Assembly (NCBI RefSeq): GCF_019649055.1
Contig: NW_026570260.1
Location: forward strand, 372,001 to 436,000
Source of the DNA: Paramacrobiotus metropolitanus
Lineage: Eukaryota > Tardigrada > Eutardigrada > Parachela > Macrobiotidae
DNA: 64,000 bases
Direction: 5' to 3'
How positions within the stretch are numbered: position 1 is the stretch's first letter; each line of letters opens with the position of its first letter. Below the pieces are notes generated by a model. It worked only from the letters and a program-made list of their open reading frames with translations. It did not search any database and was not told the origin of the DNA. A program made the translations under genes and the position numbers. Shown in pieces: positions 5,627 through 63,224 of the stretch.

Positions 5627-5978
5627 GTAAATGGAAATTTAATCGATCGACAGTTTCGAAAGGTGCAATTGTGATTCCAACGCCGCTAAGATAGACGTTT
5701 CCAATTCCAAATCCAACCATCGTTGTGGTTTCCATTACGTCTTCAGCGTCCAAAGATCTTTGTATTGGAATCGATAGCTCCTAGGCTCCCAGCGCGCTTT
5801 GGTCTTCCAACGTTTCTTCGATTTGAGCTTGGCGATCTACTCGTAGTTTTCATGTTTATTTCATTTTTTGAGTCGAATTTGACCGTTTACAGTTTATGTT
5901 ATTATCAGACAAATTTTCACTTGACTGTTGACTGCTAACTTGAGAATCTGTTAGGCAGGTGATTTGGCCATTAGAAGA
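5627..5978. other. Upstream region of survivin-like gene
   Basis: About 350 bp between the foldback element and the BIR-protein start codon. No motif stands out, and the promoter presumably lies here. Confidence 0.4.
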
Positions 5979-23212: not shown

Positions 23213-24821
23213 TCAGGATATTACGCATTTATCCTGATTCTCCAGTCGGTAGTCATCCAGGCTGCGGGCGGGCGTCGTTCCCGTGACTTCTCTGACTTCA
23301 CCCTGGAAGTACACCCGGAAGCCGACGACGTACTGCTCCACTTGCGGCCGGTGGCTCTTACTAGACGAATCGTAGTGGTACTCGTTCCACGTGTGCATCG
23401 AATCGAAGCCGGCCGCCCTCTCGTTGCCCGTGAAGGTCTTGTAGGTCACCGTCTCCACGAATAACACACGGCAGCCGCTGCCCCGCACCCACCTGTCCAG
23501 CCGTTCCCTGACCACACTCAGCCGCTCCAGTTCAGCCCGGCGATACCATTTGGGATCGCGAGTCAAGCCGGCCACGAAGAGCCGGCTACAGATGGTCGGC
23601 AGGGCGTAGACCGGCGGTGCCGAGGGCTCCAGGCGCGGAGCGGCGAAGGCTAACCGCAAGAAGCGCCAATGGAACTCGTGGAATTCCGCGTCGGTGTAGC
23701 AGGCCGTGTATATGTTTAGCGGGTCCCCATGGCGGGTGGCGCGCGTCAGCAGGGTCTGGATGTTCAGCAAGCGGACGTTCCCGGGCACCGAGGTCACCCA
23801 CTGGTTGAGGGCCCGCAGCACGTCAGTGAACTGCTCCCCGCGGGGGAAGCTGAACATCCCGCCGGACTCCACCATACGCGGAAGAAAGTCCACGAAGCCA
23901 ATGTCTTCGTGGGCGGGATGAGGCGTTGTGTGATAGAAAATACGGAAGGACTGGATGAAGGTCTGTTTGGTGAGGGCGGCCAGCGACGTCTTCTGCTTCC
24001 AAGCGCTGGCGTCGGGGTTGATTTCTCCGTGAACGCCGCGGATCAGCAGTGTCTCCACACTGAGGATGCGCCCCGGGAGGGGATTGGCGTGCAGCCAGTC
24101 GTTGGCTTGCTTGGTCAGGTCGGCCAGTGTCTGACTAACGTTCGGCAATACGCTGGGAATGAAGCTGACGTAACCGATCTGTTGTGCCTAAGATTTTGCA
24201 AAAATTTTGCATTTTACATTACTAATTTACACATTTAAAAACTAATGCCGGTTAAAGACCTCATAATCTGTACGAGTATTAAATCTGAAGGAAATGAAGC
24301 AAAATAGGTAAAAGGAAGTGATTTTGTTAAGTAAACAAAATGGTGATCTTTGGAGTAATGTATTGAAAAAAGACTTCAGTAAAACAAATAAAAAAATTAA
24401 ATCTTAATTATTATTTAAAGTGCAATGAGTGTTACATGACTATATCTTGATGGTTGAATATACGCAGGCATTATCATCGCACCTCATGGGATTCGTTCTT
24501 GTCGCGAGGTTGTAGCCAGATGCGCAGCGCCTTGACGAAAGGCTTGGCGGTCTCGCCGAACAGGTCAAACTCGCTTTGGTCGGGATTGCGGATGTGATCC
24601 TTTTCCACCTGCAGATGGATGGTCTCACAGCCGCTGATCGTCAGGTGGGGGTGTTCGCGCAGGTAGGCGTTGGCTGGACCGATCAGCGTAGAGAAGGGCT
24701 CGAATTCCGGCCAGTGCAACAGGGAATCGGGACGCAGACATTTTGGGACGAAGTCCACGTAGGTTAGACCACCCGCCCCGCTGGCGGATGCTTCAGCTTC
24801 TTTGGCTTTTTGCGACTCCAT
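23213..24821 (-). CDS. Four-repeat protein A, unrecognised family
   Basis: Two exons, 24821-24483 and 24187-23213, give 437 aa with a phase-0 joint. No signal peptide or membrane segment is visible, so it is probably intracellular. The protein is four degenerate copies of a domain of about 80-100 residues (about 20-104, 118-199, 209-295, 309-408). Three copies open with YVDFVP-type sequence (YVDFVP, YVSFIP, FVDFLP). All have a helix of the form x-AN-x-WL (ANAYLREHP, ANDWLHANP, LNQWVTSVP, LDRWVRGSG). A strand ending in an ET or similar pair follows (ISGCETIHL, ILSVETLLI, LLNIQTLLT, VLFVETVTY). Each closes with an F-x3-hydrophobic-R strand (VKALRIWL, IQSFRIFY, HWRFLRLAF, VVGFRVYF). The same plan occurs in the gene at 44.3-46.3 kb. 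I know no named family with this pattern and assign no function. Confidence 0.8.
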
Positions 24822-25948
24822 CCAAAGGATTAAATTAGTGGTAATAAAAAAGACAACCGGAAGTCGATCTTATAATATTAATGCAGATTGCCTCTACAGT
24901 TTACGGTAATACTACAATTATACCGTATACAATATTAATATGCCTAACTGTAAATGGAACCAAACTTTGCAAATAACTAAGAAAAACCTTTCCGGAAGGT
25001 TTTATTCTTTTTTTGAAGCGCAGCGCGATGAAAATTATTAGGATCATTTTGACGACAGCGATTACTCATTTTCAGGGCTCGTCACACGCTGCGGGCCGTT
25101 GAGCAAACAGGCAACGTCAGTACGAGTACTCAGTACTGTATGTACGAGCGATCAGTTTGTCGGTGCACGTTGAGCAAACAAAAGCTGTTGCTGTCACGGC
25201 TTTGCTGACGCTTATGAGTTTATCATCAAATTACTGCGTCACAATATTAATGCCAGAACGAAGAAAGCGTTGCCGATTACTTATCGTACCGCTTTATTGT
25301 TGTCACGCTTTTAGAGAATGACATCGCGCAACCGTGCACCTTGTGGTCATGATTTCACGTATTGTCGATAAAATGACGAACAAATCTGATCATCACAATT
25401 TAAACACTTCGCTTATTGTCTTGCTGAATGGATGGATAGCCATCAAAAAATTAACAAATCCCACGGAACTCGTTTTGGCGGAGCTCATCTTACAAAGAGC
25501 GATCGATGAAAGCCGGCAACCGTCGCGCCGGTCGTGGCTGGATACTGCAGTCACCAAAGGGGGAGGCAATGGAGTTCATAGTAGCATTTCGTGCCACCCA
25601 ATGTAGCAGTCTCGTGGTCCGATAAGGCAAGCGCAGCCAGCAAATTAGCAAAAGCGGCAGTAGCCAGCACTTCGATTTCTCATTTACCTATTTGTTTAAG
25701 TGCTGCTAAATTTTGAAATAACTAATTTAAATTACGTTTTCGAAAGGAGTAGTTCAATTATAAATGTAATCAAGAGCACTTTCAATAAGCCCTGCGCTCC
25801 TTGCTCCTGTTAGATCGTACGATTCTCACCGCTCTGGAGCCATGGCAGAAGCGAAGAGTAGAAGTGTAAATGTTTTTGGCTTTCTGTTATCTGTCGCTCC
25901 TCTTTCGAGGTTTTGACTGAATCGGCAGCGAAGGATGAGTGAGTGACA
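24822..25948. other. Intergenic between divergent genes, no gene seen
   Basis: Holds the promoters of four-repeat protein A and RBM48. A small inverted repeat centred on tccgga (about 24987-25004) is the only structure noted. A 90-codon open frame at 25334 resembles nothing known. Confidence 0.45.
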
Positions 25949-27098
25949 ATGAACCCTTTCCCAGCAGCCGACGACGAGACGGTGTCCATCGCCCCCGCAG
26001 CACATCACCAACGAGCCAACATCTGCAGCACGCGCCTGCCTTACCGCGACGGACACCGAAGCACAGCCGTCAAAGTGCGTACTGCATTGCCAAATACTGG
26101 AATAGTGACAATAGTCTTCACTATTTCGAGTAGTTAGGCTGACACGATTGTTGTATAAAACTGCGTAGGTGTTCAGCGTGTGCGATGAGTCTGTCTACCT
26201 GCTGATCCACCACGTACCCGCGCTGCAGCTGCAGGAGGAGTTGCGGGCGCTGTGTCTCCAGTACGGCCAACTCCTCCAGCATCGCGTCCTGACTGATTAT
26301 CCGCACCAGCAGTTCATGGAAGTCCATTTGGTTCAGTTTGCCAGTTTTTCTAGCGCCAGGTACGCGGGTTGTCCTTTAGCATCCCATTATCGAACTCGGT
26401 GTCCTGCATTTTTCTCCTTTTTTATATGAGTTACGGTTTGCGCTACTTTTCCGCAACAAATTGCTGTTCAGTTTTACTGGCTTTTACATTTAAGAATTCT
26501 TAGTCGGTAGTGGAATTTGGTGAAGGCGAAATAAAAAAGCCTCCATTTACTGGTTTTATTTACAATAATAAAAAAATGAATAAAATGGTATATTGTAGCA
26601 CTGTATGGCTTATGCATGTAAACGATGTGACGGAAATACCGTAGAAGTACAATATATATGTATGTCCAACTCCGATTGATGATTTGATCGTATATACGTC
26701 CGTAATTAAAGTTCGATACGCGTAAAATTTTTCATTTGCTCAAAATTAATAGTATTAAATTATTAATGGCAAATGTAATAGCGGAATTCATGCGAATTTA
26801 ATGTAGTTGTATCGGTAGATTGGCCAAGCGGAAGCTAGATGACTACAATTTCCATGGCTCGATCTTGCACGTTCACTACGCGCCGGAACTGGAGAGTCCG
26901 GAGGAGACGGTCACCAAACTGGAGGCGCGCCGGAAGGAAGTGGCCTACCGACTGTGGCGCAATCAGAAGGATCTGCGGGAAATGACCAACCGGAAGAAGC
27001 GCAAATGGGACGCTTTTCAGGCCGAAACCGAGTCTCCCGGTGAGGCCAGTGCACCGGCTTCGAAACCGCAGTACGGACCCCGACTTAATCCCTTCTGA
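25949..27098 (+). CDS. RBM48: RBM48-like RNA-binding protein (minor spliceosome factor)
   Basis: Exons are 25949-26074, 26169-26359 and 26819-27098 (198 aa). The N-terminus contains TRLPYRDGHRSTAVKVF, matching the conserved RBM48 leader before the RRM. The RRM (about 43-125) has SVYLLIHHVPAL as the first strand, LTDYPHQQFMEVHLVQF as the second RNP region, and LAKRKLDDYNFHGSILHV at the end. The family signature HYAPELESPEET follows. In plants and mammals RBM48 pairs with ARMC7 and is needed for splicing of U12-type introns. The C-terminus is short: the human protein is about 367 aa, while here a charged helix runs straight to a Pro-rich end (GPRLNPF). No intron in this window looked clearly U12-type. 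Confidence 0.9.
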
Positions 27099-28266
27099 TA
27101 GTCTGATTGCAGTTGTATGCTTACTGGCCCGCTAGTCGCAGAAGTATTTCCTGTAATGAGCACTGGTCTTTGGAAATTTGCAACTTTGAGTCGTTAATGC
27201 CGGTTTGCCGTGTTAAACATTTTTCGTTTTTCTACCGGCTGCACGTTCCTTTGCTTCGTCATGCCGTGATGCGATGGTTAAAGCCAAAATCGCTGGCTGA
27301 GGAAAATTTGCAAGTCCAATTCTGTGTTCACGGATGTTCAGTAATTCGATTCACACTTGATGCTTCTTCAGGAATACTACGTACAACACCGTAGCTTTCC
27401 TTTCATCAGCCACTTGTCCCACTACTACGGATAACAAAGCTGTGCTGCCACTATGCTAGCCATAACATCGCCGGAAGGCAGCAGTTTTAATGCATCTACT
27501 AACCACTAACCAGTAAGCTACAGTACTTCTCTAGTTTTCCATACCTGGAGATCGTACATAGGCAGAACTGGAAACGGGGAATGGAAGAAATTGAAACCAC
27601 TGTCGGTTTTGAAAATCGGCAAACACTTCGTGTAGAATTTTAGTAATTTCCTTGTTTGAACATTCCGCAACAGGAAATGAAATTGTTGTCTCGGTCACAT
27701 AGCTCAGCTTATGCGCAAGCGCACACGATTGCGTTAGCCCTTCACGATAAATGCGTGAAGCAAACAAGGACATTTGCAAAGTGCGCCTGCTTTAACATGT
27801 TCACAGCTTTACTCACACAAGTTCCCTGTTTGAATTATGCATTCATGCCTGACTGTGCTGGCACGCACAAACGTGAGAAGCTTCAGCTTCATCTGCGCAG
27901 ATTTCTGCCACTCTTGTAAGTCACATCTTTCGCGATTTTACCAGTTTTTATGTTTTTATCAGTTTATCTGTTTATGTTTTGCGTTATCAGTTCTAAACCT
28001 GGATTTGTTCTGCACTAGTAATTCATCTGTTAGAAATTCTTTGGAATTTGTTTGCTGTCTGTTGTTTCCTATTTCCGCCAGCGCAAAATAGAAGCTGTTT
28101 TGTTGATGTTTGCTGCAGCTTGCATGCTGCGTGTGATGCTGGCACGGTTGACTGTACGGATGCTGAATGATGCATTCCTCCACTGACCTGATTACCCTCA
28201 TCACTAACTGATGGGCCGTTTCCGTTCCTCCGGAGTGCCCTCTGTCCCGCTGTCTTCCTCACCCCC
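27099..28266. other. Intergenic, no gene seen
   Basis: Region between RBM48 and attractin on the same strand. Short open frames on both strands show no similarity. It presumably includes the attractin promoter, and a far-upstream noncoding exon cannot be ruled out. Confidence 0.4.
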
Positions 28267-31200
28267 ATGTTAGAATGGAAGATGGCGCGGCCTGGGCGCC
28301 CCTACCCCTGCCCCTGGCTGTGCCCCTTGCCCTGCGCTGTGATACTGCTCCTGGCCTTGCTGGCTCCCTTGGCCATTCCCCTGACACCCCCCTCCACGCG
28401 CCTCCTCCCCGGCTCCGCCTGCCGTGAGGGACGCTGCTCAACGGACAACTGTGATAAGGAGACACGATGGTATTTGAACGGGACGCGTGGCCTGCTGACG
28501 GACGGTCCGGGCAATTACTCGGTCAGCATGCACTGCACCTGGTTGATTGATGGCCGCAGTACCGCGGGGACGGGAGAAGGAGCGCGGGTACATCTGCGCG
28601 TAGAGAGTCTGCAGACGGAGTGCGGCTGGGATAATGTATACGTGTGGGACGGGGACAGCACGCGGGAGCCGTTGTTGGCCACGCTGTCGGGCAACATCCA
28701 GGACGAGGGAAACAGCCCCTTCGAGCTGACGGCCTACTCGGGCATGGCCTACGTCCACTTCTTCAGTGATGTCGCCCTCACCATGCCCGGATTCAACATT
28801 TCCTATGAAGTCAATCGGTAGGTCAGAGAAAATTTTGAAACGCAAAGTAAAAGCCGGATGCTCATGCTACTATAATATTTTGCTGTGCTATTAGTTTGTG
28901 GATTCTTCATGTCTTGTATTTTTACTTTTTTCTAGGCTCTTAATTTTGTAAGATTTTTTGCTCACTGTAGACTGTTAAACGCGCTTGCGGTTTTTCGAAA
29001 ATATTTCCCGTATTGTAATGTTAGATACGTATTTACGAGAATTGATTCTGGCTTCCCAAACAGCAGTAAAATTTGAAGCAGAATATTATACACAAAGAGT
29101 GTTTTAACAGGAGCAACATACAGAGTACATAATTCAGTCGGACTATGTAATATTTTTTTGAAATCTTTTTCGATATCAATTTTCCTTGAGTTGCAGTGGA
29201 TTTACAGTCACAGCATAATTTGCCGGTGTTAAGAATTAATTGTGTGGGTTTTATGGGTAGGTAAATTTAATCAGATCTGTTTTCCCGTATAATAAGCCAC
29301 CCTTTATTGCGACAATCGATATTTTTTGCCGGGACACGGATATCACATTCCGACAGATGAATTCCGCAATAATTTAATCGGAATGGGATGCGTAGCGGAT
29401 ATGCGCGTAAAATTTCAAGGTAACCTTCGACCGGCCAATCGATGGCGAATGCCTGGAAAATGGCTATTTATGACTGTTTGTCTTTGCCTTTCGCCGTGTT
29501 GGCCTTCGCCGGCCTATGTTCCATTTGAGCAGGGGAATCCAAGCGAATCGCAGTTGTAATTGTCCGCTATTTTGGCATCGATTTGCCATGGCCTGTCGCA
29601 CCTTGCTGCCACTTGTGCCCCCCACTAGCTATTCCCTCTTCGCTGATTACTAACGCCCGACCGATTACTTTTCTTGTTAGATCGAGCTTATTGATTTATT
29701 GACCAGCGCATTCTTCGCGTTCCGTTCTTCTCGCATTGCTGTCATCTTGACAATTACATAATCCACCTTTACTAGTCGAGCGGGAAGTTCATAGCATTTT
29801 TCCCTAACCAGCTGGCATAGCAGTAGCTAGTGGATGATTTTAGTTTTGTTATTCGAGTGATGATACGTATTACTTACTATACCAGGAAAACAACAAGAGC
29901 AAACCCAGCTTTTACGATAAAAAAGTTTTGTTTAGGAATTTTTGCCCTTCTCGGTAATTTCAGTTTCGATGGAATCTTTGTGCGATGGGCACTGAGTTAC
30001 TATCGTGGCAATCACTAATCAGCTTGCTAATTTTTTATTGTTTTGATTATAATTTGAAATAAAAAATGTAATGTGAACACAATGAACACAATTGGCGAAG
30101 AGGTATCTAACTGTTAATTCACTCGGAATTGATTGCAGTTGCAACTGTTCGTCTATGCACGGACAATGCGTAGAGCGCCCTTCAGACGGCCCGTTATGCC
30201 TTTGTGAAAAGGGTTGGACCGGTCCCTCGTGTGACGAGCCGAAAGGATGCCCGGACAGTTACTCCTGCCAAAACGGCGGCCGCTGCGCAGATTCGGGTGC
30301 GTGCCAATGCCCACCGGCCTTTCGTGGCGTCGACTGCAGCGTGCCCACCTGGGAGGGTCTGTGGGAGCGGGTGCCTTTCCCCGGCGACCAACCAGTGCCG
30401 GCGCCGTCGGCCTCTCACTCGGCGGTGCTAGCCGATCGGCAGGATGTATACTGGGTGGGCGGGGAAAGTTTCGGGGCGGAGAAGGACATGAAACGTGTCC
30501 ATCGACTGGATCTGGCCAGCATGGAGTGGCAGTTACTCTCCAGCACCAGCGGTGCCAATCCTCAGAAGCGATACGCCCACACCACCGTGGCGTAAGTGCC
30601 ATCTTATTTCTTGCAGTTTCTTACGGATGTTGTTGTAAAATTTTGTTGTAAAAGTATTATTTTTTGCAAAAATTGTTGATAAATAATAAGTATTTTTAAA
30701 ATCATATATATGTCCTTTTGATTATGATCTGCGTAGTTACGCAATAAGCGTCCAACTGCACGAGATGCGTGGGTTGTTGAATTGTTCATTATCTGGTGAA
30801 TTAGTTGGACGTCTTCGGCGGTGTTGCGGCGCACTTGTAATTGTTGTTTCGTCGCGCATCGCTGCCCCGTCAATGCGGATTATGGATTAAGTTGAGCGGA
30901 ACAGTTGGGGCCAGTGCGAACGCCGCTGAGCTGCGACGTTTTTTCTCGCTCCCCAACCGACTCCGCCGCTGTTGACGTCGCGGCGCGCACTCATTTGCGT
31001 GTTCTTTCATCCTTCTATTGACACGAATGTCAGCCAGCAATGATTGGATTGCTGGATGATTTACGCCAACTAATCACCCCAGCAAATTAATCTTCTTATA
31101 AAAACTCGTTCAAAAATTGCAAGGGTGTTTGCGGAAAAATAAAATGGAAAAAATTACGCAAATAAAATCGTGATTAATTCTTGCAGGTATAACGACAGTA

Positions 31201-34200
31201 TTTACATGTACGGCGGCTTCGTCAACAGCACCATCGTCAGCAATGAACTGTGGCAGTGGGAGCCGAAGCACGAAGTACGTTATCCAGTTATTGGCGTTCT
31301 TTGGGCCGTTTGTATTAAAAATATGCATGTGGTCTAGGTGTGGGTTCTGCGACAGTTTAATAAGGAGTGCCGGGTAGGCTGCCTGCCCATTCCGACAGCC
31401 GGCCACACTGCGCATGTGGTTGACCACAAGATGCTCATCTTCTTCGGCTACGGGGGTCCGGAATACGGTTTTCTCAATATTGTCCAGGAGATTAATCTGC
31501 GTTCGCCTCCACACAATAAACGCTGGTCCATCGTTCCCACCAGCGGCACCTACGTCTACGGTACCTACGGCCATTCCTCTGTCTACGATGCCAAATCAAA
31601 GTATGCTACCTTTTAGTAAATAAAAGTTGAAATTGAAATTCTTCCTGTAGTTGATAAGTTTGTAAAACTTGCAGTCTGCACTATGGGGCGAATAATTTAA
31701 CAAATTATTCGTTATTATCTTGAGCGCTGAATTCCGCACACGCCCCATTAAAAGATTTCAGAAGTTTAGTAGAGAAACCGTTATTATTAATTTAGTAGGT
31801 GCTTATTTTGGCACTCTCTGCGAGCTTTTTGTTTAGTGCAATGATGCAGTCTAATGTGAAGTATTCTGTTGATAGTGAAAAGACTCTCGGTGTTAAAATT
31901 GAACAATATAACCACTTAATGGTATTTCTTTGTAGTATGGTGTACATTTACGGTGGCTTCCTGCCTAATCAAGGCCGCGATCCGTTGAATGCCGATTCGC
32001 CGAAGCGGCTTTTCCTGGACAATCTGTGGGTGCGATTGTTAGCCTACGATCCGCAGAAAGCCTACTTCAAGCGAATGCGCGATTCGCCCATGCCGCGTTT
32101 CCTGCACACGGGCGTCCTCTTCAGCGCCGACGCGGGCATGGATGACGGCATCTTGTGGTTTTTTGGCGGCAACCCGCGCAACGAGACCTTCGTTAGCCGC
32201 AGTGCGCCGTGCTACACCGGTGACATGGTGGCGTACGATATTCGTTGTGATCAGTGGCACGTGATGAAGACACCCAAGATGAATTTCGACAGCATTCGTC
32301 TTGCAAGGTGACCGCATGATCTATTTTGCACTGTCAGTTTGTCGATTTTTAATGCTCGTACCGTACTGATAGTTACATTGATTTCTTTGGGTTGTTAATG
32401 TGTTTTCTTTAAAATACGCTGACTTACTGAGAATTCACGATTTTTTACGTAATCCATGTGGCCTTACCATTGTGTAACTTTTTCTGTAAATAACTGTAAC
32501 TAGTGGAGACGATTTTTTTTCTTCTTTTAGATATGGACACGCAGCATTTATGTTCAAGGATCAAATGTACGTGTTAGGCGGCTTCCAAGGCAAACTGTTG
32601 AATGAAGTCCTGCGCTTCAGTCCTGGCCAGTGCCGCTTCGCCCCCAGCCGGGAGACGTGTCTGTCCATCGCGATGGTCGGTCGCAAGTGCGCGTGGAACG
32701 AGCGCTCTAAACAGTGCACGGACGGCAGCACCCTCCTTCCGGGCTACGAGCACGTTAAGTGCGCTTCGGCCAACAAAGACGCCGACGAGTTTAAGTGTTC
32801 CCGTGAAGTGGGCATGGGCTGCAACATGTGCCTTGGCACCTCGCTGGATTGCCACTGGTGCAAAGGAAGCGGACTATATGGCTGCACTATGCAGCCGTGC
32901 CGCGATGAGGGCAGTCTGCTGACGGCCATCTCCTCATGTCCCCGCGAGCCGGACGTGTTCTGCAGTACGTTCTTCAACTGTCAGGGCTGCGTGACGCTGT
33001 CCAACAACACGTGCATGTGGCAGCGAGAGGGTGTCGGGCGCGGCGGAGACTGTGTGCCGCGAGTGGTGCCCGGACCGCCGCAGGATCTGGCGGAAACGGT
33101 CAGCTCCAGCTGTGATATTCCCTGCACGCAGCGCAGCACCTGTGAAACGTGCACCAATTCCAACGGATTGTGTATGTGGTGCGCCAACGAGGAGCGCTGC
33201 GTGGATCCCATGGCGTACAATGTGGTCTTCTCCTACGGACAATGTCGGGACTGGACGAGTACGAGCCGGAAATGCCCAACGCTGGGCAAGTGCCACGGGT
33301 ACAAATCGTGCCGGTCGTGTTTGGAGAATCCGGATTGCGGCTGGTGTGATGACGGAAGCGGAACAGGACGCGGTCAGTGTGGAATGGGATCGCAACGCGG
33401 TCCTTGGGAGACGGAAACATGTCCGTCCAAATTGTGGTATTTTAGCAGTTGTCCGGCGTGTAATTGTAACGGCCACGCGCAGTGCGTCAACAACAGTCAC
33501 ACCTGCCAACCCTGTCAGGATTTCACCGAGGGAAATAACTGCGAGAAGTGCGTCTCAGATTTCTACGGAGATCCGCGCAACGGCGGCAACTGCACGGAGT
33601 GCAATTGTCCCGATAATGCTTACGGATGTGACTCGGAGACGGGCAACTGCAAGTGCAGCACGAAGGGGACAACGGGCAGGATGTGTGATAAGTGCGATGA
33701 GCTGAATCACTACAGCAGCCACAATGGAGCATGCTTTTACGAACTGCCCATCGGATACCAGTAAGTTGGGGCAGACAAACGCCGGAAATCGAATCGTGTC
33801 GTTCGTTAATCTGCTTATGGGCAGCTGAAGCATGTTTGTATATATAATTTAAGTTATAAAGACCGTTGTGATAATCATGGCTGATTAATAAATTGTTCAA
33901 ATGGATAAGGCTAAATTTACTTCAAATAATCCGCTACCTCAGAGAAATTGTCATTGTGCGGTAGTAATTTGTATAGGGATTTACCATGTGACTGAAACTG
34001 AACTTGGTGGCCGCTAAAAAATTTTGCTTTGAACAGATTCACGTTTAACTTGACGAAAGTGGAGGATAGCCACTTCACCAGCATCAACTTCAAATCATCA
34101 CCGCCGGAACGCGACTTTGACGTCAAGTTTACTCTGGTCTGCACGTAAGTGTACATTTGATTTACTGCTTTTGCTTTGGTTAAACGCTGACGATTGGCAG

Positions 34201-35270
34201 GAATTCCTCGCTGGTAAATGTGTCGTACAAGACGGCGGTAATGGCCCGCGAGGAGCTGTTGATCGGATCTGCGGTGTGCAGTTTGGAGCACAAGCTGGAT
34301 CGAGTATTTTCGCACGATCAGCTGCCATTCGGCCAGGAGGGCCTCAACACCACCGTCTTCGTCTACGTCCATGACTTTGCCACGCCCTCCGTCATCGTCA
34401 TCTCCTTTGCGCAGCACGCCAGTCTCGATCTGTTGCACTTCTTCGTCGTCTTCGCCTGCTGCTTCCTGTCGCTGCTGCTACTGGCTGCGGTGGGATGGAA
34501 GGTGAAACAGCGTTACGATCTCTACCGCCGGCGCCAGCGCATGTTCGTTGAGATGGAGCAGATGGCCAAGCGGCCCTTTGCTTGCATCAATCTCGATTTG
34601 ACCAGAGGTAGGCAGCGGTGGTCTACTGAAAAATCTCTGTTTGAAATTAGTTAATGGTTTCTTAAATTACTTTATAGTTTTACTGTCCAACCTGTTGATT
34701 ACCGAACTTGCTTGTTGGGTAATTAGTGGTATTTATTGTTGTGTAATCTGTTTAGGATCATTTATGTATCAGCGCGATCTATGAAAATTAATTTGTAGAT
34801 TTAATCTGTACTACTGAATTTAATTAACGACTGTGTAAACTTTAATGCGCGATTTTAAGCTTTTGTGACATTGACGAAGAAGTTTGAAATTACTGAAATC
34901 ATTAGTTCATTTATTTGACATATAGATAGCTAACATGTGTTGTTTAGGAGCGAGTTCGGAAGTGGATCGCGCAACCGGAACAGTCCGTCCTCTGAAGCGT
35001 CCTTTGAAGAATCTGCTGCGGCCGGCCCTTGTGTCCAGTGAGGCCCTGGCGGATGGTCGGCACGGCGTGGTGTCGGCACTGATCGCTCTGCCCAACGGCG
35101 GCGGCCCCGGTTACGCGCCCTGGGGGCAGACTGGCCTGTGCGTCGGCTCGGCACTTGTAACTCTGCAGCCGGGCAGTCACACGCGTAAGCCCTCGTTGGA
35201 GTCCAACCCCAAAGATAAACTGAAGAAGCAGACCCATACGGCGCATTCGCCAGAGCCGGATCCCACCTGA
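28267..35270 (+). CDS. Attractin-family transmembrane protein
   Basis: Nine exons: 28267-28817, 30139-30591, 31187-31274, 31338-31600, 31936-32307, 32531-33760, 34037-34144, 34201-34607, 34948-35270; 1264 aa. A Leu-rich signal segment (about 22-42) is followed by a CUB domain (about 70-182, with CGWDNVYVWDGDS) and two EGF-like modules (CNCSSMHGQC and after). A Kelch propeller comes next, with YMYGGF, IFFGYGG, YIYGGFLPN, WFFGGNP and YVLGGFQGK blades. Several Cys-rich PSI repeats follow (CNMCLGTSLDCHWC, CRSCLENPDCGWC), then laminin-EGF modules (CNCNGHAQC) and a beta-rich juxtamembrane part. One transmembrane helix lies at about 1102-1121. The cytosolic tail keeps the attractin motifs MEQMAKRPFA and GYAPWGQTGL. 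Attractins act at the cell surface in melanocortin and Mahogunin-dependent pathways. The C-type lectin domain of the vertebrate proteins seems to be missing. Confidence 0.93.
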
Positions 35271-36095
35271 ACGACGCAAGAACCGATTAACTAATGAACA
35301 AACAGACACGCTCAACAACGTGGCAGCTAAGAGAAGTTTAGTTTCGTTTTTTGTATCCTCATTCTCTCCTTCCTCTTTCTCTCTTCGGATTGAACGGTTT
35401 TAGTATTTTGATTTGTGTCTCAGGCAACTGACGAATAATACTCCAATGATGTTAATAAATCCCATTATAGCAAGATTCCAAACTGTCAAAACCTAACCAA
35501 TAATGGAGAAAATTGTGACTAATTATACATCTAGTTATTACAAAAGAAAGAATGAATTAAGGTTAAGTGATTGCATAATAATAGCAATTTTTTATAACTA
35601 GAAGTAATGAGATAAACAGATATTAACCTGTAAATAAAGAATATCTGCGAACTGCGATTATCGATAAATACAGATAGGTTTAACGATTAAATGCAATAAA
35701 ACTATCTACGCCGTTATCATAAGCAGGACGTGTTGGGAAAAGAAGGCCGTGACCTTGCAATGATTATCGCGTGCCGGTGATAGCCAGAAGTTGCCGTAAT
35801 CTCTCGCACCATTCACCGGCGCATTCCCACATGGTCAGACACCTGAATTAACGATAAACACCCATTTATGTGATAAGGCTTATCGCGGCACAACAATAGT
35901 CAGCTGCTGATAAGTGACGCTTCAATGAATCAGGAAAGCACGACAATGTGGTTACTGTTGGCTGTTTTCAGTCAGCAGGACGGTTTTTACGTAACGGGTT
36001 TCTTCGGCGGTAATTTTTCTAGGCAGTGGTAGTGTTTGTTTGTGATTAGTGTTTTGGTTGTGATTTTTAACTGAAATTACCATTCAACGGAGAAG
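35271..36095. other. Intergenic between attractin and carboxypeptidase B
   Basis: AT-rich. It contains the attractin 3' UTR with AATAAA at 35454, and the promoter of the carboxypeptidase gene. No gene seen. Confidence 0.45.
35454..35459 (+). terminator. Polyadenylation signal of attractin gene
   Basis: AATAAA 184 nt after the attractin stop codon. Confidence 0.5.
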
Positions 36096-38737
36096 ATGGA
36101 GATTCGTGCGGTCGTTCTTTTGGTCGCGATGACCGTCACGCTGTGTAGTTCGGCAGCGGTGAAAAACCATTGGCTCGGGTAAGGTTGCCATCTAATAATC
36201 TGCTCTAGAGTAAGAAGGGGCGCACATGCGTCATCAGAAGTATCCATCAACGTAATAATTGTAACTTCCATTTTTTAAGAACGACAAGTTTAAGTTTAAT
36301 AAATAAACTATATTTTAAAAATAACGGATGCTAAAAGTTAAGTAATAAATTAATCATACATTATTGCAATAACAGTAGCAGCATAAGAATACCCAACTCA
36401 GCTGCTTAATTAAGGGAAAATTAGTGCCGTACATACAAATTGTGCGCAATCAGGCGGCATTCATTTGTACTTTGTATCAATTATTATATCACATGCCGTG
36501 GCGATGTAGGTACAAATTATACCGGCTGCAAGTGTCCACCCAGGAGCAGCTGGAATTTTTACGAGCTTTGGACCAGGAAATTGAATACAAAGACCTTCAA
36601 GACAAGGTTTGCTGTTTGCCGGCTCTTAATAATTACCTATTTATGTATGATGGTGTGTCCACATTGCAAATTGGTTGTGGGCTAGGTGGACATCTGGACT
36701 CACCTGAGCCAGGCCGTGCTGGACCTGAAGATGCCCATCAACGTCATTATCTCACCCGAGAAGCAGCCGGAAGTGCTGGCCCTGTTAGAAGAGCAGGGGA
36801 TTGCGTACAAGGTTTCCATCGACGATGTGGCCGCGTAAGTGCCGTACTCTTCGTGCGTTAAAGGAATCACACCTCTTTCGCAAGATTGCCGTACGTTATT
36901 ACCTTTCTTATCAGCAACGCTAACGGAAACGAAAGAGAATGTATTTCTGACACACACACACCGACTACTGTTTAGCCATCTTCCTGAGATTAGATAATGC
37001 TGCATGCATTGCATTTAATATGGGAATGCTACTATAAAGCTGACGCGTGTATTAATGGAGGTCACGTGCTTGTTATTGACAGTGGTAATATTTTGCAGCG
37101 CTGTGGAAGCGGAGTCGTTTATGTCGCCGGCTGACCAGAAGGCCGCCGACGCCGGCAAGATGAGCTGGACGGCGTACCATAGATACGCCACGGTAAGTGT
37201 TTCCGCGTACTGTAACCGCTTTATTTACGGGTTTTCAAAACCCGTAAATAAAGTAGTGCGCTTGCTGTGCACTTGCGTTGACCACTGCGTTTTCAAATCA
37301 TATGACTAAAAAAATGTGTGCTTTATAAAAAAAATTCCACTACTCCAATGTCTCACGATTGCAATAGTGCACGAAATGCCTACTTTGCATAGATGGAGGC
37401 ATTCGTGCAAAGTCTAGCGCAGGATTATTCTGACATTGTGGAGCTGAAGATGATTGGAAAGAGCTACGAAGGCCGCAGCATGTACCGGCTGAAGGTGGGG
37501 AAGCCGCGCGCCGACGGCAAGAAGAAGCCGGCCATTTGGATGGACTCCCGTACGTCCCCACACACTCAACGCTTTCTAAAAACGCACTCATCTCAACTAT
37601 ACTATGCGCAAATATGCAAACATACGCTAATTACAGATATTCACGCCCGTGAGTGGATCGCCAGCGCCACATTGCTGTACATGTAAGCACAACAATGGAT
37701 ACGCAGTTAATTCCCAGTAGAGCTACAAATACATTTGCTGTTGGGCAGGACGAATAAGCTGGTGACGGAATACTCGCGCAACAGCACCGTCAGACGCATG
37801 GTGGACGACCTGGACTGGTACATCCTGCCAGTGGTCAATCCCGACGGTCTGGAGCACACCCACTCCGACTCTTCCTACTCGGTAGGTGCTTCTCGCATTA
37901 CCTTGCTCATTACCGGTGACCTTTACACAGTGTAATTTCAGACACGCATGTGGCGCCGCACCCGCCGCATCAGCCCCTTCGCCGAATGCTTGGGCGCTGA
38001 TCCCAACCGCAACTACGATTTCAAGTGGATGTGTACGTCCCGCTTGTATCTGACTAGGTACCGCGTAGCCAAACCAGTAAATTTAACGACGTTTTTTGTA
38101 TCAGTGTCTGGCGCGGTGCAATCGCCGCCGTGCAGTGACATCAACGCCGGCGCCTTTCCCTTCTCGGAGGTCGAGAACCTCCATCTAACCGACACGGCGC
38201 TGGAGGTCAAGGATCAGCTCAAAGTATTCCTTACCATTCACTCCGCCGCCCAGATGATCCTCACACCCTGGGGCTACGCGCTGGAATATCCCAGCGATAT
38301 TGCTGATCTGGTCAGTATTTTACGGTTCTTGCTGTGTGATCCGACAGTGACCTTTAACGTCGTGCTTTACAATTTACTAGGAAGCTCTGGGCCGGCGCAT
38401 GGCCAACGCCATTACGGCGCAGTATGGTGTCCGCTACCAAGTGGGCAGCTCCACGTATCTCTTAGGTCAGTATCGATCAACTTAGCGTTATTAATAATGC
38501 AATATATCGTGTTGTATATCGTGTTGTTAATGAGTAGGCGCGGCAGCCGGTGCTACGGACGATTGGGGCAAAGCCAAGGCCGGCGTCAAATATTCGTACA
38601 CGGTGGAGTTGCGTGACCTGGGCTACGGCTTCATCCTACCGCCCAGCCATATTGTGCCCAGCGGCATCGAGACCTTCGAGGCCATTATCGAGGCCCACCG
38701 CACCGTCGTCGCCGAGTTCGGCACCACCCTCAACTGA
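36096..38737 (+). CDS. Secreted M14 carboxypeptidase B-type zymogen
   Basis: Eleven exons: 36096-36178, 36510-36606, 36686-36834, 37099-37192, 37393-37549, 37637-37682, 37749-37881, 37942-38032, 38105-38310, 38381-38465, 38538-38737; 446 aa. Signal peptide MEIRAVVLLVAMTVTLCSSA, then a propeptide starting YKLYRL, then the catalytic domain. Zinc ligands are His196 and Glu199 (HAREW) and His329 (LTIHSAAQ). The Asn-Arg pair is in ADPNRN, and the catalytic Glu is Glu404 in ELRDLGYGF. The residue before DW, equivalent to position 255, is Asp388 (TDDW), the hallmark of B-type enzymes that remove C-terminal Lys or Arg. Exon lengths 157, 46 and 91 are identical to those of the A-type gene at 17.1-19.4 kb; only the last exon is split further here. 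Intron 4 contains a perfect 17-bp-arm palindrome. Confidence 0.93.
37219..37253. repeat. Perfect palindrome in carboxypeptidase B intron 4
   Basis: Arms of 17 bp (37219-37235 and 37237-37253) around a single C; the left arm is ctttatttacgggtttt. It lies 27 nt after the donor of exon 4 (37192). Confidence 0.9.
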
Positions 38738-39375
38738 CCAACCAAGAACGAATTAACGCAATAACTTTGAATAACTCAGTAACTTTATCAGTTCGTATGT
38801 CTTTCTCACAACAACCAACAAATTAAGTGATCACCACAGTCAGTGGGACCAGTTTCTTGTACAGATTTACCGGTAACTATTCTCGGATGACCTTCCCATA
38901 TACGGCATAAGACACGTATTTAATTACCATTATACCATTGAAAAGTTAACGTCAACAGCTGCTGAAAATCTCCACCAGTCAACTCAGCACGAAATTATGT
39001 TTTAATGAGCACAAAATTAATGATTATTACAATGCAAAGAGTAATCAATAACATGGCCAACCATAAGTGATGCAATCATACTGCAAGCCTGCTATCAAAC
39101 GCAGAGAATATCGAGTGTAGTGTCGACAAATGAAACTGCTGCATATAACGGCATCCTATTGTATAACATGGAAAATAAACAGTAAATCGTTTCATTGCAT
39201 GCTTTTGTCCGAGCGTGGCGGTGTGCGTACCGAAAGTGTATTAAGTGATTGTCTTCATCGGTGGGAACGAGCGTCACCTAAGGTGACTGTCTTCTGGACT
39301 AGGTTGCCACCGGAATGTAAGTGGTGGAAAAGGTGGCAGCGTTAGGGCGGGGCAGTGGTTGCGCCGAAGCGCCGG
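38738..39375. other. Shared 3' region of two convergent genes
   Basis: About 640 bp between the stops of the B-type carboxypeptidase (+) and the 4-Cys secreted protein (-). An AATAAA on plus lies at 39174-39179, so the carboxypeptidase 3' UTR could be about 450 nt. No gene seen. Confidence 0.4.
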
Positions 39376-41283
39376 TCACTGGGAATGTGCAGTTATCCGC
39401 TGGGAGCGATGGGCGCGTTTGTGTTTCTTGGCCGCCATACTGGGTATCCCGGGGCGGACGTGCTTGACGCAGAGGACAGAGAAGCCGATGTAGGTGCGGT
39501 CATAAGTCTGGCAGATGCCGGCTAGGCCCTCCACGCCGAAAGTGTACAGGCACCGACCCGGCTCCCGCGTTTTCTGCTGCAGAAGGAATATTAAATTTAT
39601 TATTACTATGCTAGTCTCAACTCAACAGCGTAATCCGCTTCCGGTTAAACGCGATCGTAATGGTAGGCCCCTGTGAGCGTTGCCTGCGTTGGGAACACAT
39701 ATTACCAGATAAGACATCTAACGAATTAAGAACAACGCCACGGCGACGTTTTAATGACGTCTTTGAGAAAATATTTGAAACGGATAAAGGGCATGCGATT
39801 GTTTTCACTACTCCTGATTCCTCTTACTAGAAATGTAATAATTTAATGTCAAAACTTCAGGCTCTGACCTCATAATTCTGTAATATTTGTTTACACAAGT
39901 TACAGTTATGCCGACCTGGATTCCCGCTTCCTCAGCAGGAGTTCTAACCGTTATGCGAGTGTTTGACAGTCGAGTCTTTGCATTATTTACTGCGATGCAG
40001 CACGACGCCGTTTGAGAAGTCATGCATCTACTTCCGGCAAACGCCTCGATTTCACTGCTTAGAAAGGTTGTGGCTGTTCAGCGGCAGGAATGCGTAATTA
40101 ATATGATCATGCCGTCATGGACATAATTAAACATAACTTAATAGTTAACAATGACATGGGTTTGGGGTAATGCATAATAAGCATGCGACTGAGAGTCGAG
40201 ACCTAATCAATAGCCACGTAGTCAACGACGCGCGGTTTCTGTGATACTTATATGTAATAATTGCATCCAATCGGGCTAGATATCGTCAAACTGTTAAATA
40301 AAATTGTTGACATATCTTATGGATATTTCCCTCGTAAAGGTCAGCTTCCTCAACTGACTTAACTGAATCCAACCGGCCACAATACGACCTGATCTTCGTC
40401 AATATATGCACAGGCAAATTAAATTAAGCGATTGCGACAAGGGAAAGACTAATGCGACCTTCGTGTGTCGGTATAATATAAAGCAAATGCCAGGGACGAT
40501 GGTACCATAGCGTTGTGGGATTATTTTGCTGGCCGGCAGCAAACCTACGCAAGTTATGGATGCGCGCGTGATCCCGACATTTCTTATTACGCTCTTCACG
40601 AGTACGTAATTAATTAATATTGCTGCATTGTAAGGTTTCTGCACCATAGGGAAGGTATGGTATGAATGTGCAGAATAATATAGTACAGTAATGCTGCCTA
40701 CCAACGTCGATATGGTGAGCGGAGACTGTTTTTTGTCTTGAATTCCTAATCGGCAGGTACTTACGTTGTCAACGTGCACTTCGCACTCCGGTCGCTCCTG
40801 TAACGCTTTCTGCTTGGCCAGACTGCGGCTTGTCCGTGTCCGCTCCGATGGTGATCCCCACGAAGTTGGTGGAGAAAACAAGAATGCCTTGCGGATACTG
40901 GATCCTGATATCTGTAAATTATAACGATATATCCATCAGCGACAACTTCCGTAGTGTGCATGGAATTCGTATTTTATCCTAATACACACATAGTACTGAA
41001 CGTAGGTACATCCTGTCACCATTAGTCTTAGTGTCATTAGGAGTTGCGGGCTTTGAAACCAAACAAAGTAGATTCTAATGGTTTGGTACACAACCTGCAT
41101 AATTTTTGAGCAAGGAGACCTTGGTCCGAGCATGTTGGCCAGTGGCCATAGGTCAACATATTGTACTCTTACCGGAGCGACGGCTGGACTGGCCACGACG
41201 ACGGGTGCATCGAGTGCCGCCTGCAGAAGGACAGCACAGACGGCACACTGCACCACTGCCGACCTCCACGAGTAAGCAGCCAT
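39376..41283 (-). CDS. Secreted basic protein with four cysteines, unrecognised
   Basis: Three phase-0 exons (descending): 41283-41173, 40911-40765, 39576-39376; 152 aa. Exon 1 is almost exactly a signal peptide (MAAYSWRSAVVQCAVCAVLL and on to about residue 30). The mature part is basic. Its core has four cysteines, C-x14-C-x12-C-x13-C, running from ERPECEVHVDNQ through EPGRCLYTFGVEGLAGICQ to FSVLCVKHV. The tail is Lys/Arg/His-rich (AAKKHKRAHRSQR), with possible dibasic processing sites. I do not recognise the domain. A secreted growth-factor-like or matrix protein is possible but not shown. The exon 3 acceptor is a tandem cagcag, so one Gln may be alternatively included. Introns are long for this window (about 260 and 1190 nt) and carry nothing recognisable. 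Confidence 0.6.
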
Positions 41284-44200
41284 GTTGCTGGCTGTATATA
41301 AATGCAACACAAACGTTAACGACAAACGATGGCCAGAATACCGTGGCAGACTGGCTGCCACCGGCGGAATACGCCTGAACGAACCCGATGCAACTATTCT
41401 AGAAAAGCCGGCAACTGACTGTGAGGGTCGTACTTTATTGCTAGATTATGTAGCCGGTTCCGGACAGATACAAATATGGCCGACTCGTATGCAATTCTGT
41501 CAAAACAGTCAGTCCAACCGAAGTAGTTCACACAGTATAAAGGACACGCCACAAGAGCCACTTGGGCAGTGACATAAATCACACCGCGCAAACACAGCGG
41601 TTCGGAGCCAAGATATATGCGAAGGTCGTGCAACTGGTGACGGTGAATAGTGGTATCAGCGGTAGTGTACCACTAACAGAGACCGATACGCACCGGAAAT
41701 CTACAAGAAGCGTGACTTATGCAAAAAGATGTAACGTAACATGAACCGCTTTTGATTGATTAAAGACCCCGTTTTTGTCTCCAACCAGAACTTAGCTCCA
41801 GACTCCAGTTACCACGTACAAGGCAGCTAAGTCGTGTTGTGAACGGTATTTATAGGAAAGGCCAAACGGCGGCTGCAGCAGAAACTCACCTGGGCGGCTA
41901 ATTGTTAACTGTCAACACGCTGTCCAGGGTGACAGGCGCGTAATCAATCTGGCCCACATATGCAAGACGATCAGACTCTCGCTGATGACATTTGCACTGC
42001 TTAAAGGTCACCGGCTGCATGTACACATTCACACCGGAACTGGCGTTGGATGTGGCTCGCGGATGTTTACATGCCGAGCAATCCCACTGGTCAACGCATT
42101 ACCATCACGCGGCTTTCGCCCGGGAAATGGCGGGCTCGATGCTCCGGTGCTGCGTCTTACCAGTGACTTAGTGGGTTGTTTCTAAACAAGAATGCTCTTT
42201 GCGTGCCGACACCTAACGGAAAACTAACAGGAAGCCGTGTACGGGCGGCTGTCGTGTCTTATTAAGCGGACTTCGCTTTGACCGCGCTCGGGGAGAATAA
42301 CCTTGACCTTTCGCCGACTGCGCCACGGAGGCCAACGACATTTAACGCACAACAAAAGGCGACCATCCGCTGACATAAATGCGCGCGCGTCAACAGGTTA
42401 GCGTGAGGTAAGGCGGTGATAATGAGATCAATTAATTCTGACTGCAAACGCAATCGTCGATCACGGCCCAGCAAGTAGTCTGAATGCCGGCAATAACTGG
42501 GAAGCGGACGCCAGTGAGCGCTAATTTAGATCGCTTCCGGGTCAAATCGACAGCAACTAATGCAGGATGTTCCAGTTCGAGGTATTTAAGGCTTGACGGT
42601 AGCTAGCGCGGCGTACGCAGGCATCAGCCTATTATATCGAATGATGTCAGAGATAACTGCGAGGATGACCAACGACAAGCGCACACATGTATAATGTCAT
42701 AGCAGGAATGAAGGCGCATATTAAGGCGCATAATAATATAACAGACCTTCATTTGTGCTATGATAATGTGCAAAGCTGCGATGAGCCAGCAAGGTGAGTA
42801 ATCCCACTCCAGTGCGATTTCTTCCCGGATGCTCACGTTGCAGTTGGCAGCCCAGTTGCAACACTGCAGAATTCCAGTGCCATGCCATGTTTGTACTCCG
42901 CTAGACAAGCCCACAGTCTGGAGAAATGAGTAATTTTTTGTCCGGGCGATCGATTTCCTTTGCGAACAATCACAGTTGTCTTTGTACGTTGTACTGCTTG
43001 ATTGCTCGATTTTCTCACCCACCATCTTATATTAATTGCCTTTCTTTCTTTACGTTTGCAATGCCCACGTAGCGACAGCATTACTTAGATGCACCAAGTT
43101 ATCAGCACTAGAAGTACTGTACTTACTGTCAATGTAATTACACAAAGGTCACTTTCCTGCAGTTAGCTCATCCAGTTGCCTGCAGGCTTATAAGAGCGTT
43201 TACTGTTCTGTTGTACAATACAACGTGTCAGTTTAAGCGGAAGTCAGTAAAGAGGACTAATAATTATGGACTTCCTTCCGGTTTGCGAATGCGGCTAGCC
43301 CATTAGCTAACTTGGCTGGAGATTTCTTACAGCCGGCGTACTGCAAAGTTACTAATAATGTATATCGGGGCGCACTTACCGTTGACGAACTGTCTGTCTG
43401 CGTGCGTGCGTCAGTGGGCTGCATTAAAAATACATACTAATTCGGCTACACTATTAGTATCTTCCAGGAAAGCCGTCATATTTCTAGGAAGATAAGTGAG
43501 CCAAACGGAAACGGCCAACACCCGTCCTCACCTCTTGTGGCCACTCCTGGCTGGCCACACGCACGTCCGCATTAGTAGCTCCATTAAACTCAGTGCCATA
43601 CGTTATTTAGGTGTGCTTGGTGAAATCCACGCTGCTGTGCCCATCTGGTTGACACCTGAAGTATGCGGTGATCACGTGCTGAGGAAACAGCCGGGCGTCT
43701 AAACCAGAGACGACGGAAGAAATGCAAATTAAAGGGACGGCCAAGCGCCAACTGAATTGCACGGCAGGAAGTCGAATATGCGTCAGTAATTTGTTTCCTA
43801 ATATAGCTGTCATCGGTCGAGAATGGAGATTATGTTACAGTAAATGATCGACGATTATCAGTGTGTTACTGGGCCACGCGGCCCGGTAGATGCAGTTCGC
43901 GTTGAAATAACGGCAACAATCAACACCCAAATACCCACACCGGAAACGGCACCGGGGGCTTCTGCGCACCGACATTTCTCTCGGCATGTAAACGGCCCTG
44001 TCGGTCAAGGATGTTGAGCCCATCTGCGCAGCATCGGAAAAATATTACTCATGTCAAAACACTGAGTCGATCAAGCCAAACGAAACTCCAGCAAACTGCC
44101 ATACTTATTACTAGCGTCATGAAAATTACAGTAACCAATCCTTGACAAATTAAAGTATATACGAACAAGAATAGTAATTGTGTTTCAGATTGTACACATA

Positions 44201-44325
44201 TTTCCGTCGGATAGGCATATCACATAAGGCATGTCAGTAGTGTTCGCGCTGTACAATTACAAAAAGAATCAGGGTAACAGCTGGGCAGCAATGCAGGACA
44301 CAATAGCATCCAAGAGACCCATGCA
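41284..44325. other. Large intergenic region, no gene supported
   Basis: About 3 kb with open frames up to 133 codons on the minus strand (near 42624-43025) but no recognisable domain, splice-consistent model, RNA gene or repeat. Base composition is mixed, not clearly repetitive. Confidence 0.45.
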
Positions 44326-46258
44326 TCACTGAAAGAACACCCGATAAGTCGGCACCACCACCACCTTCCCCTCCCCCTGGTCGCCACCCCGCCGGATCCC
44401 CATTTGGTACATGCTCTCCAGACCACCCAAAAAATCCACCCCCATCAGCACCCGCTTGCGCATTCCGGTCACCGCCAGCACCCGCCCCTTTCCCTCGTCG
44501 CGCAGCCAATCGCCCATGCGCAGTCGCACTGTCTCGTCGGCCTCTAACTGCTCACTCTTCAAGACCATGGGCGCAAACGTCTGGCACTGCAGCGGGACGA
44601 CGGTGTGGGCGCGTTTGATGAGGGTCTCCTCGGGATTCTTCAGGCACACCACGAGACGCAGACCCTCCAGGAAACTGCGGAATTGCGACGGCCAGGTGGC
44701 CGCTGACGAGGCTGGCAGACGGTGCCGGTTGTTCACCGAGCGGCAGATGTCCCGGATGCTCACAACGCGGCAGCCGATCGGAAGAGCAGCTAGGCAGTTC
44801 TGCAACAATCAATTAGCTGCCTGCTAAAATCGTGCCTTTGATAGTACTTAACTATGGATTACATTTCATTTAATTAGCTGCCTGCTAAAATCGTGCCTTT
44901 GATAGTACTTAACTATGGATTACATTTCATTTAATTAGCTGCCTGCTAAAATCGTGCCTTTGATAGTACTTAACTATGGATTACATTTCATTTAATTAGC
45001 TGCCTGCTAAAATCGTGCCTTTGATAGTACTTAACTATGGATTACATTTCATTTACTTATCTCTGCTAATAATATTTGCGATAAATTGCAGTCAGACTGA
45101 ATTCAGTGACAGTTTGAAACGATTAATTTATTACTGCACTTGTGTTTTAACTGTTGTGGTTGATAATCACTTAGGTTAATCAGTTAATGTTACACTCACT
45201 GTATGCGTACAGTCACAGATGGTGCAATAAACGAATTTTTTTAAAAAGTTACCTAACGGGCTAGCAATAATAAAATTAGTAATCCCGTTCCCTATCTGCA
45301 CTAATTTTAAAACTTATTACTTACTACTCGTAGGTATCTATGTACTAAGCGATTTCTGTAACGAATTACCTGATTTTAATTTTAAGTTTTAGCCTTGAAA
45401 AAAGGGCAAAGAAATGTCATTCAGAATGTTTCCAAAGCCTAGTGCAGCCGAGTCGCAATCAACATGTGCTATTAATCTACCGTACCTGCACGCGGGCGAA
45501 CACTTCGCTGAAATTCTCATACAGTCCAGATCGTTTTCTGGATTCTTTGCGAACGACAGCCGGCCAAAAATCTTGTATCGCCAGCAGCTCCAAATGCTGT
45601 TTACCGCGGACAATAAATACCCGTACGTACTCCGTGAAGCGCATACTATCCCCCTCCACCCAGTGCGATCGGTGGGAATCGGTGAAACGGCCTTCATATG
45701 GCACCAGCAGTGACTCCACGCTAAGAATCTGCCCGGTCAGCAGACTGTCCGACAACGCATGGTTCACCGCCGCTACCAGCTGATCCAGGTGGCGCTGTTT
45801 GGGCCCCGAGGGCGGCCGGATATGCACATCCAGGAAAACCACTTCGTCCGAGAGGAACGGGAAAACGACCGATTTGTCGGTCAAGTGGGAGCTGCAATTA
45901 TTAAAAAATTTTGTAGAAAAATTAACTACATAGTGGTAGATTGCACTCACCGCATAACGGGTTTATTCTGCAGCCACAAGCGCAGTCCCCGGATACAGCC
46001 GAAACTGCGACGACTCGCGATCCTCTCCTTGCGGGTGCCCGCTACCACCTGCGCCTCGTGCACGCAGTGACCGCGCAGTTCCCGATGGCTGACCAAAATC
46101 GACTCACAACTGCGCAGCTGCAGATCGGGATTGGCTTGGAGATACTGATTGGCTCGCTGAAGCAACAGCGGGAAACACTCAAAACGCGCCCGACATGTCC
46201 CCACATTTTGGGGATAGAATTCAACAGACTGCAGACCCGCGTCTATCTCACTCGCCAT
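44326..46258 (-). CDS. Four-repeat protein B, paralog of protein A
   Basis: Three exons (descending): 46258-45951, 45891-45486, 44799-44326; 395 aa. The first ATG in the conserved frame is at 46258. No signal peptide or membrane span. The four-repeat plan of protein A is recognisable. Repeat 1 (about 11-97) has VEFYP, RANQYLQANP, LRSCESILV and IRGLRLWLQ. Repeat 2 (about 118-199) has VFLDVHIRP, VNHALSD, ILSVESLLV and FTEYVRVFIV. Repeat 3 (about 208-290) is weaker at its start, with CRVVSIRDI and FLEGLRLVV. Repeat 4 (about 305-395) has MGDWLRDEG, RVLAVTGMR and VVVPTYRVFF. It is on the same strand as protein A but about 20 kb away, so this is not a fresh tandem duplication. Intron 2 contains four perfect 61-bp repeats. 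Function unknown. Confidence 0.75.
44811..45054. repeat. Tandem repeat, 61 bp x 4, identical copies
   Basis: The unit begins aattagctgcctgctaaaat and ends cattacatttcattt-like; copies start at 44811, 44872, 44933 and 44994. The copies are identical. The array sits 12 bp from the acceptor side of exon 3 of protein B, inside its intron 2 (44800-45485). Confidence 0.95.

Positions 46259-58181: not shown

Positions 58182-63224
<5,043 letters not shown>

Follow-up and report, generated by a model that had tools for sequence, protein, structure and literature searches.

A 64,000-nucleotide stretch of the tardigrade Paramacrobiotus metropolitanus genome (contig NW_026570260.1, here C40, positions 372001–436000; ‘the window’ in what follows) carries two minus-strand genes, gene 1 and gene 2, which belong to a family of proteins built from four degenerate units, U1–U4. 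By splice search and translation, gene 1 consists of two exons separated by a GT-AG intron and encodes 437 amino acids (aa), and gene 2 consists of three exons with GT-AG introns and encodes 395 aa. The longest open splice model was taken for both; gene 1 also admits open models of 434 aa (through an alternative open acceptor 9 nt further in) and 418 aa, and gene 2 five shorter open choices. These models coincide exactly, in position and length, with the two genes proposed in an original prediction made from the sequence alone. The second intron of gene 2 contains a tandem repeat of approximately four 61-bp copies, the inner ones near-identical, which reaches the splice acceptor (Table 1).

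As that prediction also proposed, each protein comprises four degenerate units of about 90 residues: unit profiles trained on 19 family members, gene 1 and gene 2 among them, recovered U1-U2-U3-U4 in order in both genes. The same arrangement emerged from a comparison involving no training, in which BLOSUM62 local scores of gene-1 units against gene-2 units were measured against 400 shuffles per pair. Equivalent pairs U1 to U4 scored 76, 48, 44 and 60 (p = 0.000, 0.000, 0.005 and 0.000), bearing out the earlier claim that equivalent units are more alike than expected by chance, and each gene-1 unit scored highest with its gene-2 equivalent, by just 48 to 47 in the U2 row. Of 12 non-equivalent pairs, four were significant at 0.05 and eight were not; the four are to be expected, because the units are repeats. 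Inside gene 1 alone, 4/6 unit pairs were significant in the shuffle test, compared with 0/6 inside gene 2 (p = 0.11–0.79), so that the gene 2 repeat is visible only through the family.

Profile–profile comparison of the unit positions across the 19 members (17 rows for U1) gave 95.7–98.5% probability in all six pairs, over nearly the whole unit, against a maximum of 27.1% from 60 column shuffles per pair in four of them. For U2–U4 and U3–U4, 1/60 shuffles each was anomalous at 99.7%, and the same pairs stood out in a separate 40-shuffle run; when the rows for L022 and L023, which have long U4 inserts, were dropped, the anomaly was gone (shuffle maximum 3.0%, 60 each; real values 95.9–96.3%).

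The family extends well beyond the window. Searching the 169.8 Mb genome (533 contigs) with exon 2 of each of the two genes and with two relatives, and then reading the loci, yielded at least 28 loci, some partial: gene 1, gene 2, L017–L023, L024 (two), L025 (three), L026–L031, L032 (two), L033 (two), L034, L037, L038 and L039. The original prediction was right that the two genes are related but understated the extent of the family, 26 further loci lying outside its view of the window. Five genes each form tight arrays on C23 (~1.09–1.12 Mb) and C40 (597–610 kb), and looser groups are found on C126 (three scattered loci) and C211 (two). The three intact four-unit members L019, L020 and L021 are intronless, many other copies are spliced, and three copies (L018, L034 and L039) are either disrupted or incomplete. 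L017 and L018 are near-identical and may be alleles. L018 together with L042 (C94, 542 kb and 554 kb) reads as a close copy of L017 that is interrupted by in-frame stops and has its first exon ~11 kb from the second, possibly an allele or a recent broken duplicate.

At a lenient 3-bit threshold, 23 of the 27 loci scanned (every locus but L039) held U1–U4 in order; 19 of the 27 had trained the profiles, and the only untrained four-unit cases were L025p, L026, L037 and L038. Within the 23, the models of L029 and L030 hold just a piece of U1, U3 is weak in L037 (4.5 bits) and U4 is weak in L038 (4.7 bits). Loci without all four units (L018, L027, L032p2 and L034) are fragments, run into contig ends or have models that lack exons. 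Fourfold architecture is therefore present even in the very divergent copies L037 and L038, with some units weak.

In the family tree, in which 9/18 inner branches are open, gene 1 pairs with L017 (support 100/99) rather than with gene 2. Gene 2 ranks among the most strongly diverged members, with an end branch of 3.4, and it and L037 sit on very long branches whose position is unsure. Purifying selection acts on close pairs: the ratio of non-synonymous to synonymous substitution rates (dN/dS) was 0.14 for gene 1 against L017 and 0.23, 0.11, 0.38, 0.16 and 0.26 for five other close pairs, so that six of seven measurable pairs fall within 0.11–0.38. The seventh, L017/L018, gave 0.80 at a dS of 0.05, L018 being the disrupted copy; gene 1 against L019 was saturated.

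No known family was found to account for these proteins. Ten of the 28 loci, compared with each of Pfam, NCBIfam and PHROGs, gave chance-level matches only (best E 0.059); in Pfam at E≤5 there were three single chance-level matches among these 10 members (best 0.098), and the five window exon open reading frames (ORFs) reached E 0.15 at best. The earlier statement that no named domain was known with this layout therefore stands for these members, the confident Pfam match that might have overturned it having been looked for and not found. PDB sequences gave no match to the family profile and two non-significant ones to the unit profile (E 0.48–0.76). In 84,980 prokaryotic species and in viruses, scanned with gene 1 exon 2 and a three-member alignment, there were pattern matches but none was confirmed by tblastn, the patterns being short peptides that leave room for remote relatives. 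A literature search confined to titles and the openings of abstracts, with subscription papers and supplements outside its reach, returned no paper on such a family and no hit for family peptide words. The family is apparently unnamed, and in other tardigrades or animals it may well exist as an orthogroup without a name.

Conservation within the units is concentrated in a pair of residues. An Arg in the last strand is retained in 18/18, 19/19, 19/19 and 19/19 members for U1–U4, and strand 2 carries Glu, Glu or Gln, Gln, and Glu, respectively (17/18, 18/19, 18/19 and 17/18). L037 and L038 keep this Glu/Gln-Arg pattern by eye; gene 2 deviates from it in U3 and U4. The most conserved unit residues look structural. 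The unit fold is predicted to be beta-alpha-beta-beta: an AlphaFold model of gene 1 U2, run with an alignment of the eight window units (gene 2 U3 in part only), placed a strand at residues 2–6, a helix at 18–31 and strands at 36–47, 61–64 and 71–84 (predicted local distance difference test score, pLDDT, 73.6; predicted template-modelling score, pTM, 0.58). The model of the three-unit exon was poor (pLDDT 44.7) and was kept out of the fold search, leaving a single unit modelled with fair confidence; while the unrecognised four-unit family of the original prediction holds, its functional ‘tetrameric-like array’ (a ring or another closed assembly) gains no backing.

A pointer to the site of action lies at the C-terminus. 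Among the 24 loci whose 3′ end is resolved (L026, L034, L037 and L039, for which it is not, being left out), 18 have Cys at position −4, and in 18/18 of these the residue at −2 is I, V or F (F in one). These CaaX-type tails are CVIS (gene 1), CIVA (two), CKFC, CVIV, CVII, CTIL (four), CNIL, CAIA, CPIV, CTIS, CTIA, CVIA, CVVM and CSVM, whereas the same pattern ended only 29/1298 (2.2%) stop-ended ORFs of ≥60 aa taken from the DNA of the window and of the family loci, a set that contains the family's own ORFs. Farnesyltransferase prefers S, A, C or M as the last residue and geranylgeranyl-transferase prefers L; judged in this way, the family tails would be a mix of farnesyl- and geranylgeranyl-type. 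Three members of the C23 array (L033p1, L033p2 and L032p2) have a hydrophobic C-terminal segment instead of CaaX (Kyte-Doolittle 2.75–3.03), an apparent swap of membrane anchor. A Kyte-Doolittle scan, not a dedicated predictor, found no N-terminal hydrophobic segment (19-residue window >1.6 in the first 45 residues) in the 19 models that start with Met, 5/24 models being without a start. Anchor-type C-termini strongly suggest membrane anchoring and, with the lack of an N-terminal hydrophobic segment, argue for proteins on the cytosolic side; the CaaX tails would be prenylated. Neither the C-termini nor the Glu/Gln-Arg signature featured in the original prediction, and the C-terminal findings are new here.

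Short PPxY motifs, 23 occurrences in 16/24 models, are a further feature. Some lie N-terminally (L024p, L024m, L028 and exon 1 of L039–L041) and others in linkers (gene 1, L017, L018 and L021). Their apparent enrichment (23 against a shuffle mean of 1.1, maximum 6 in 1000) was judged too weak to keep: the proteins share ancestry, and more than half of the motifs lie within or next to folded units.

Lipid-anchor signals on most members suggest scaffolds attached to the inner side of cell membranes, and the best reading, to which we would give about an even chance, is that these proteins are cytosolic, membrane-anchored four-module scaffolds. A beta-alpha-beta-beta unit of ~90 residues would be present in four anciently diverged copies in fixed order, and a C-terminal anchor (usually CaaX, farnesyl or geranylgeranyl; a transmembrane-like tail in three members of one array) would hold the protein on the cytosolic membrane face as a multivalent binding scaffold. 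The units would provide binding surfaces, PPxY motifs in the N-terminal and inter-unit stretches may in some members recruit WW-domain partners, and tandem duplication would diversify specificity; gene 2, which lacks an anchor, would be a soluble, diverged relative. Such a scaffold accords with the types of anchor, with the divergence among the four units, with the apparently structural character of the most conserved residues and with the PPxY tails that some members carry.

Several observations weigh on the other side. Neither CaaX nor a hydrophobic tail is present at three of the 24 resolved ends (those of gene 2, L025p and L031), and ORF lists checked by eye for a concealed CaaX exon downstream of gene 2 showed none that was convincing. 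The CaaX counts are not independent, the proteins being of shared descent, and 12/23 PPxY motifs, being either PPNY within U3 or PPQY where U2 meets U3, are probably related to the fold. Gene 2 has no close copy, so that the selection figures cover pairs in which gene 2 takes no part. Finally, the U4 motif GFDxMHTWN (D 15, H 14, T 15, W 14 and N 16 of 19) is conserved enough in the main clade for a ligand or catalytic site.

It is this last point that gives rise to the main rival, in which the family binds small molecules or is enzymatic, the four units forming one pocket whose active or ligand-binding site is GFDxMHTWN, while the role of the lipid anchor is only to position it. His-rich long insertions in U4 were seen in L022 and L027 (the other models read lack such insertions), and these could bind metal. 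By eye, however, the motif is not retained in gene 2, L037 or L038, whereas L037 and L038 keep the Glu/Gln-Arg pattern and gene 2 keeps part of it, and no significant similarity to known families was found; we consider such a pocket unlikely. The mixture of farnesyl- and geranylgeranyl-type tails, the tight and looser gene groups and the large divergence would also suit intracellular defence effectors, the family being then an arrayed, prenylated and diversifying one comparable to the guanylate-binding proteins in mode of action. Against this, 6/7 measurable pairs show no diversifying selection over the whole gene, the seventh involves a disrupted copy, and Pfam revealed no effector domain in 10 members, and a defence role is accordingly rated as rather unlikely.

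A third possibility is a highly diverged branch of tandem strand-helix-strand-strand (SHS2) proteins, a grouping that takes in dodecin, GyrI-like and SOUL/HEBP proteins, binding heme or a related ligand. The order of secondary structure in the single-unit model, which is of fair quality, agrees with this, and Foldseek returned weak matches to dodecin (TM 0.39–0.45, E 1.4) and to an RNA polymerase I chain (E 0.36) that we take to be A43. However, no Foldseek match to the single-unit model was significant, the best being E 0.18 in PDB (ribosomal protein S6) and E 0.07 in viral models; no Pfam match was seen, the SOUL/HEBP family PF04832 being without a match in 10 members; and a search of the genome with the PF04832 profile came back empty, which means that this profile does not detect the family. 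An SHS2 origin consequently appears improbable. That the loci are an artefact of chance ORFs, pseudogenes or transposon remnants, as the few broken or partial copies might suggest, is scarcely credible given four units in order in most loci, a few of them weak, intact intronless as well as many spliced copies, purifying selection, and no Pfam match to transposase or reverse transcriptase in 10 members.

Returning to the scaffold reading, a broader proposal can be put forward more tentatively, and with rather less than even confidence: that the family represents an undescribed animal domain, a fixed array of four beta-alpha-beta-beta units with one Glu/Gln-Arg pair per unit and an interchangeable CaaX or transmembrane anchor, multiplied in arrays in this tardigrade, and perhaps a novel class of multivalent receptors or scaffolds bound to membranes. 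With ~28 loci and no Pfam match, this is a family of some size that lacks annotation. The CaaX or hydrophobic tail offers a direct and cheap handle on where the proteins act, and a structural study would have a well-defined object, since even the most divergent copies share the order of units.

Coordinates of the family features and of neighbouring genes are collected in Table 1. Four of the neighbours, recognised by Pfam, are ordinary animal genes or exons (urea transporter, BIR domain, glutathione S-transferase C-terminal domain and major facilitator superfamily transporter). An attractin-like exon lies between gene 1 and gene 2, and the ORFs upstream of it, from ~28267, look by eye like parts of the same gene. 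The published genome description (Hara et al. 2021, PMC8277472) gives a GC content of 43.46%, slightly below that of most of the window.

Table 1. Positions of family features and neighbouring genes (window coordinates unless a locus is named).
Feature	Position	Strand	Basis
Gene 1 exon 1, aa 1–113, carries U1	24483..24821	-	Splice search, translation; U1 profile 114.6 bits
Gene 1 intron, GT-AG	24188..24482	-	Splice search
Gene 1 exon 2, aa 114–437 and stop, U2–U4	23213..24187	-	Splice search, unit profiles
Gene 1 U1, aa 18–105	24507..24770	-	Unit profiles
Gene 1 U2, aa 116–200, predicted beta-alpha-beta-beta	23927..24181	-	Unit profiles, AlphaFold
Gene 1 U3, aa 208–296	23639..23905	-	Unit profiles
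Gene 1 U4, aa 311–409, with GFDxMHTWN	23300..23596	-	Unit profiles
Gene 1 C-terminal CVIS, putative CaaX-type prenylation signal	23216..23227	-	C-terminal sequence
Gene 2 exon 1; U1 aa 8–98 (45965–46237)	45951..46258	-	Splice search, unit profiles
Gene 2 exon 2; U2 aa 111–198 (45606–45869) and first part of U3	45486..45891	-	Splice search, unit profiles
Gene 2 exon 3; rest of U3, U4 aa 308–395 (44329–44592); C-terminus RVFFQ, without CaaX	44326..44799	-	Splice search, unit profiles
Tandem repeat, gene 2 second intron	44745–45110
Transmembrane-like C-terminal member	L033 2574–3197
Transmembrane-like C-terminal member	L033 6197–6817
Transmembrane-like C-terminal member	L032 4527–5102
His-rich U4 insertion	L022 1457–1933
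His-rich U4 insertion	L027 2898–3374
THAP/P-element transposase-like gene	56–1648	+	ORF with THAP, P-element-like helix-turn-helix and TNP-like RNase H domains
BIR domain	5964–6377		Pfam
Glutathione S-transferase C-terminal domain	8757–9125		Pfam
Urea transporter	15429–16442		Pfam
Attractin-like exon	32550–33764	+	Laminin/attractin EGF and plexin repeats
Major facilitator superfamily transporter	50765–51220		Pfam
Piece of guanylate cyclase gene	59649–59960	-	Heme-NO-binding-associated and guanylate cyclase domains

Of known systems, CaaX-prenylated cytosolic proteins with Ras-type tails resemble the family in the C-terminal Cys, the aliphatic a2 position and the absence of an N-terminal hydrophobic segment; a paper on tardigrade intermediate filaments (PMC4829535) contains the word CAAX. 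Unlike such proteins, the family has no detected GTPase, lamin or other known domain, and its four-unit body has no sequence relation to any Pfam family. The likeness to SHS2-type proteins would lie in the modelled secondary-structure order of one unit, although the family has four units rather than one or two, and no significant sequence or fold match connects them. PPxY-bearing membrane adaptors of NEDD4-type ligases provide a third comparison, by features rather than by sequence: the N-terminal tails of some members carry PPxY and would be combined with a C-terminal membrane anchor, whereas PPxY outside the folded units is found in some family members only.

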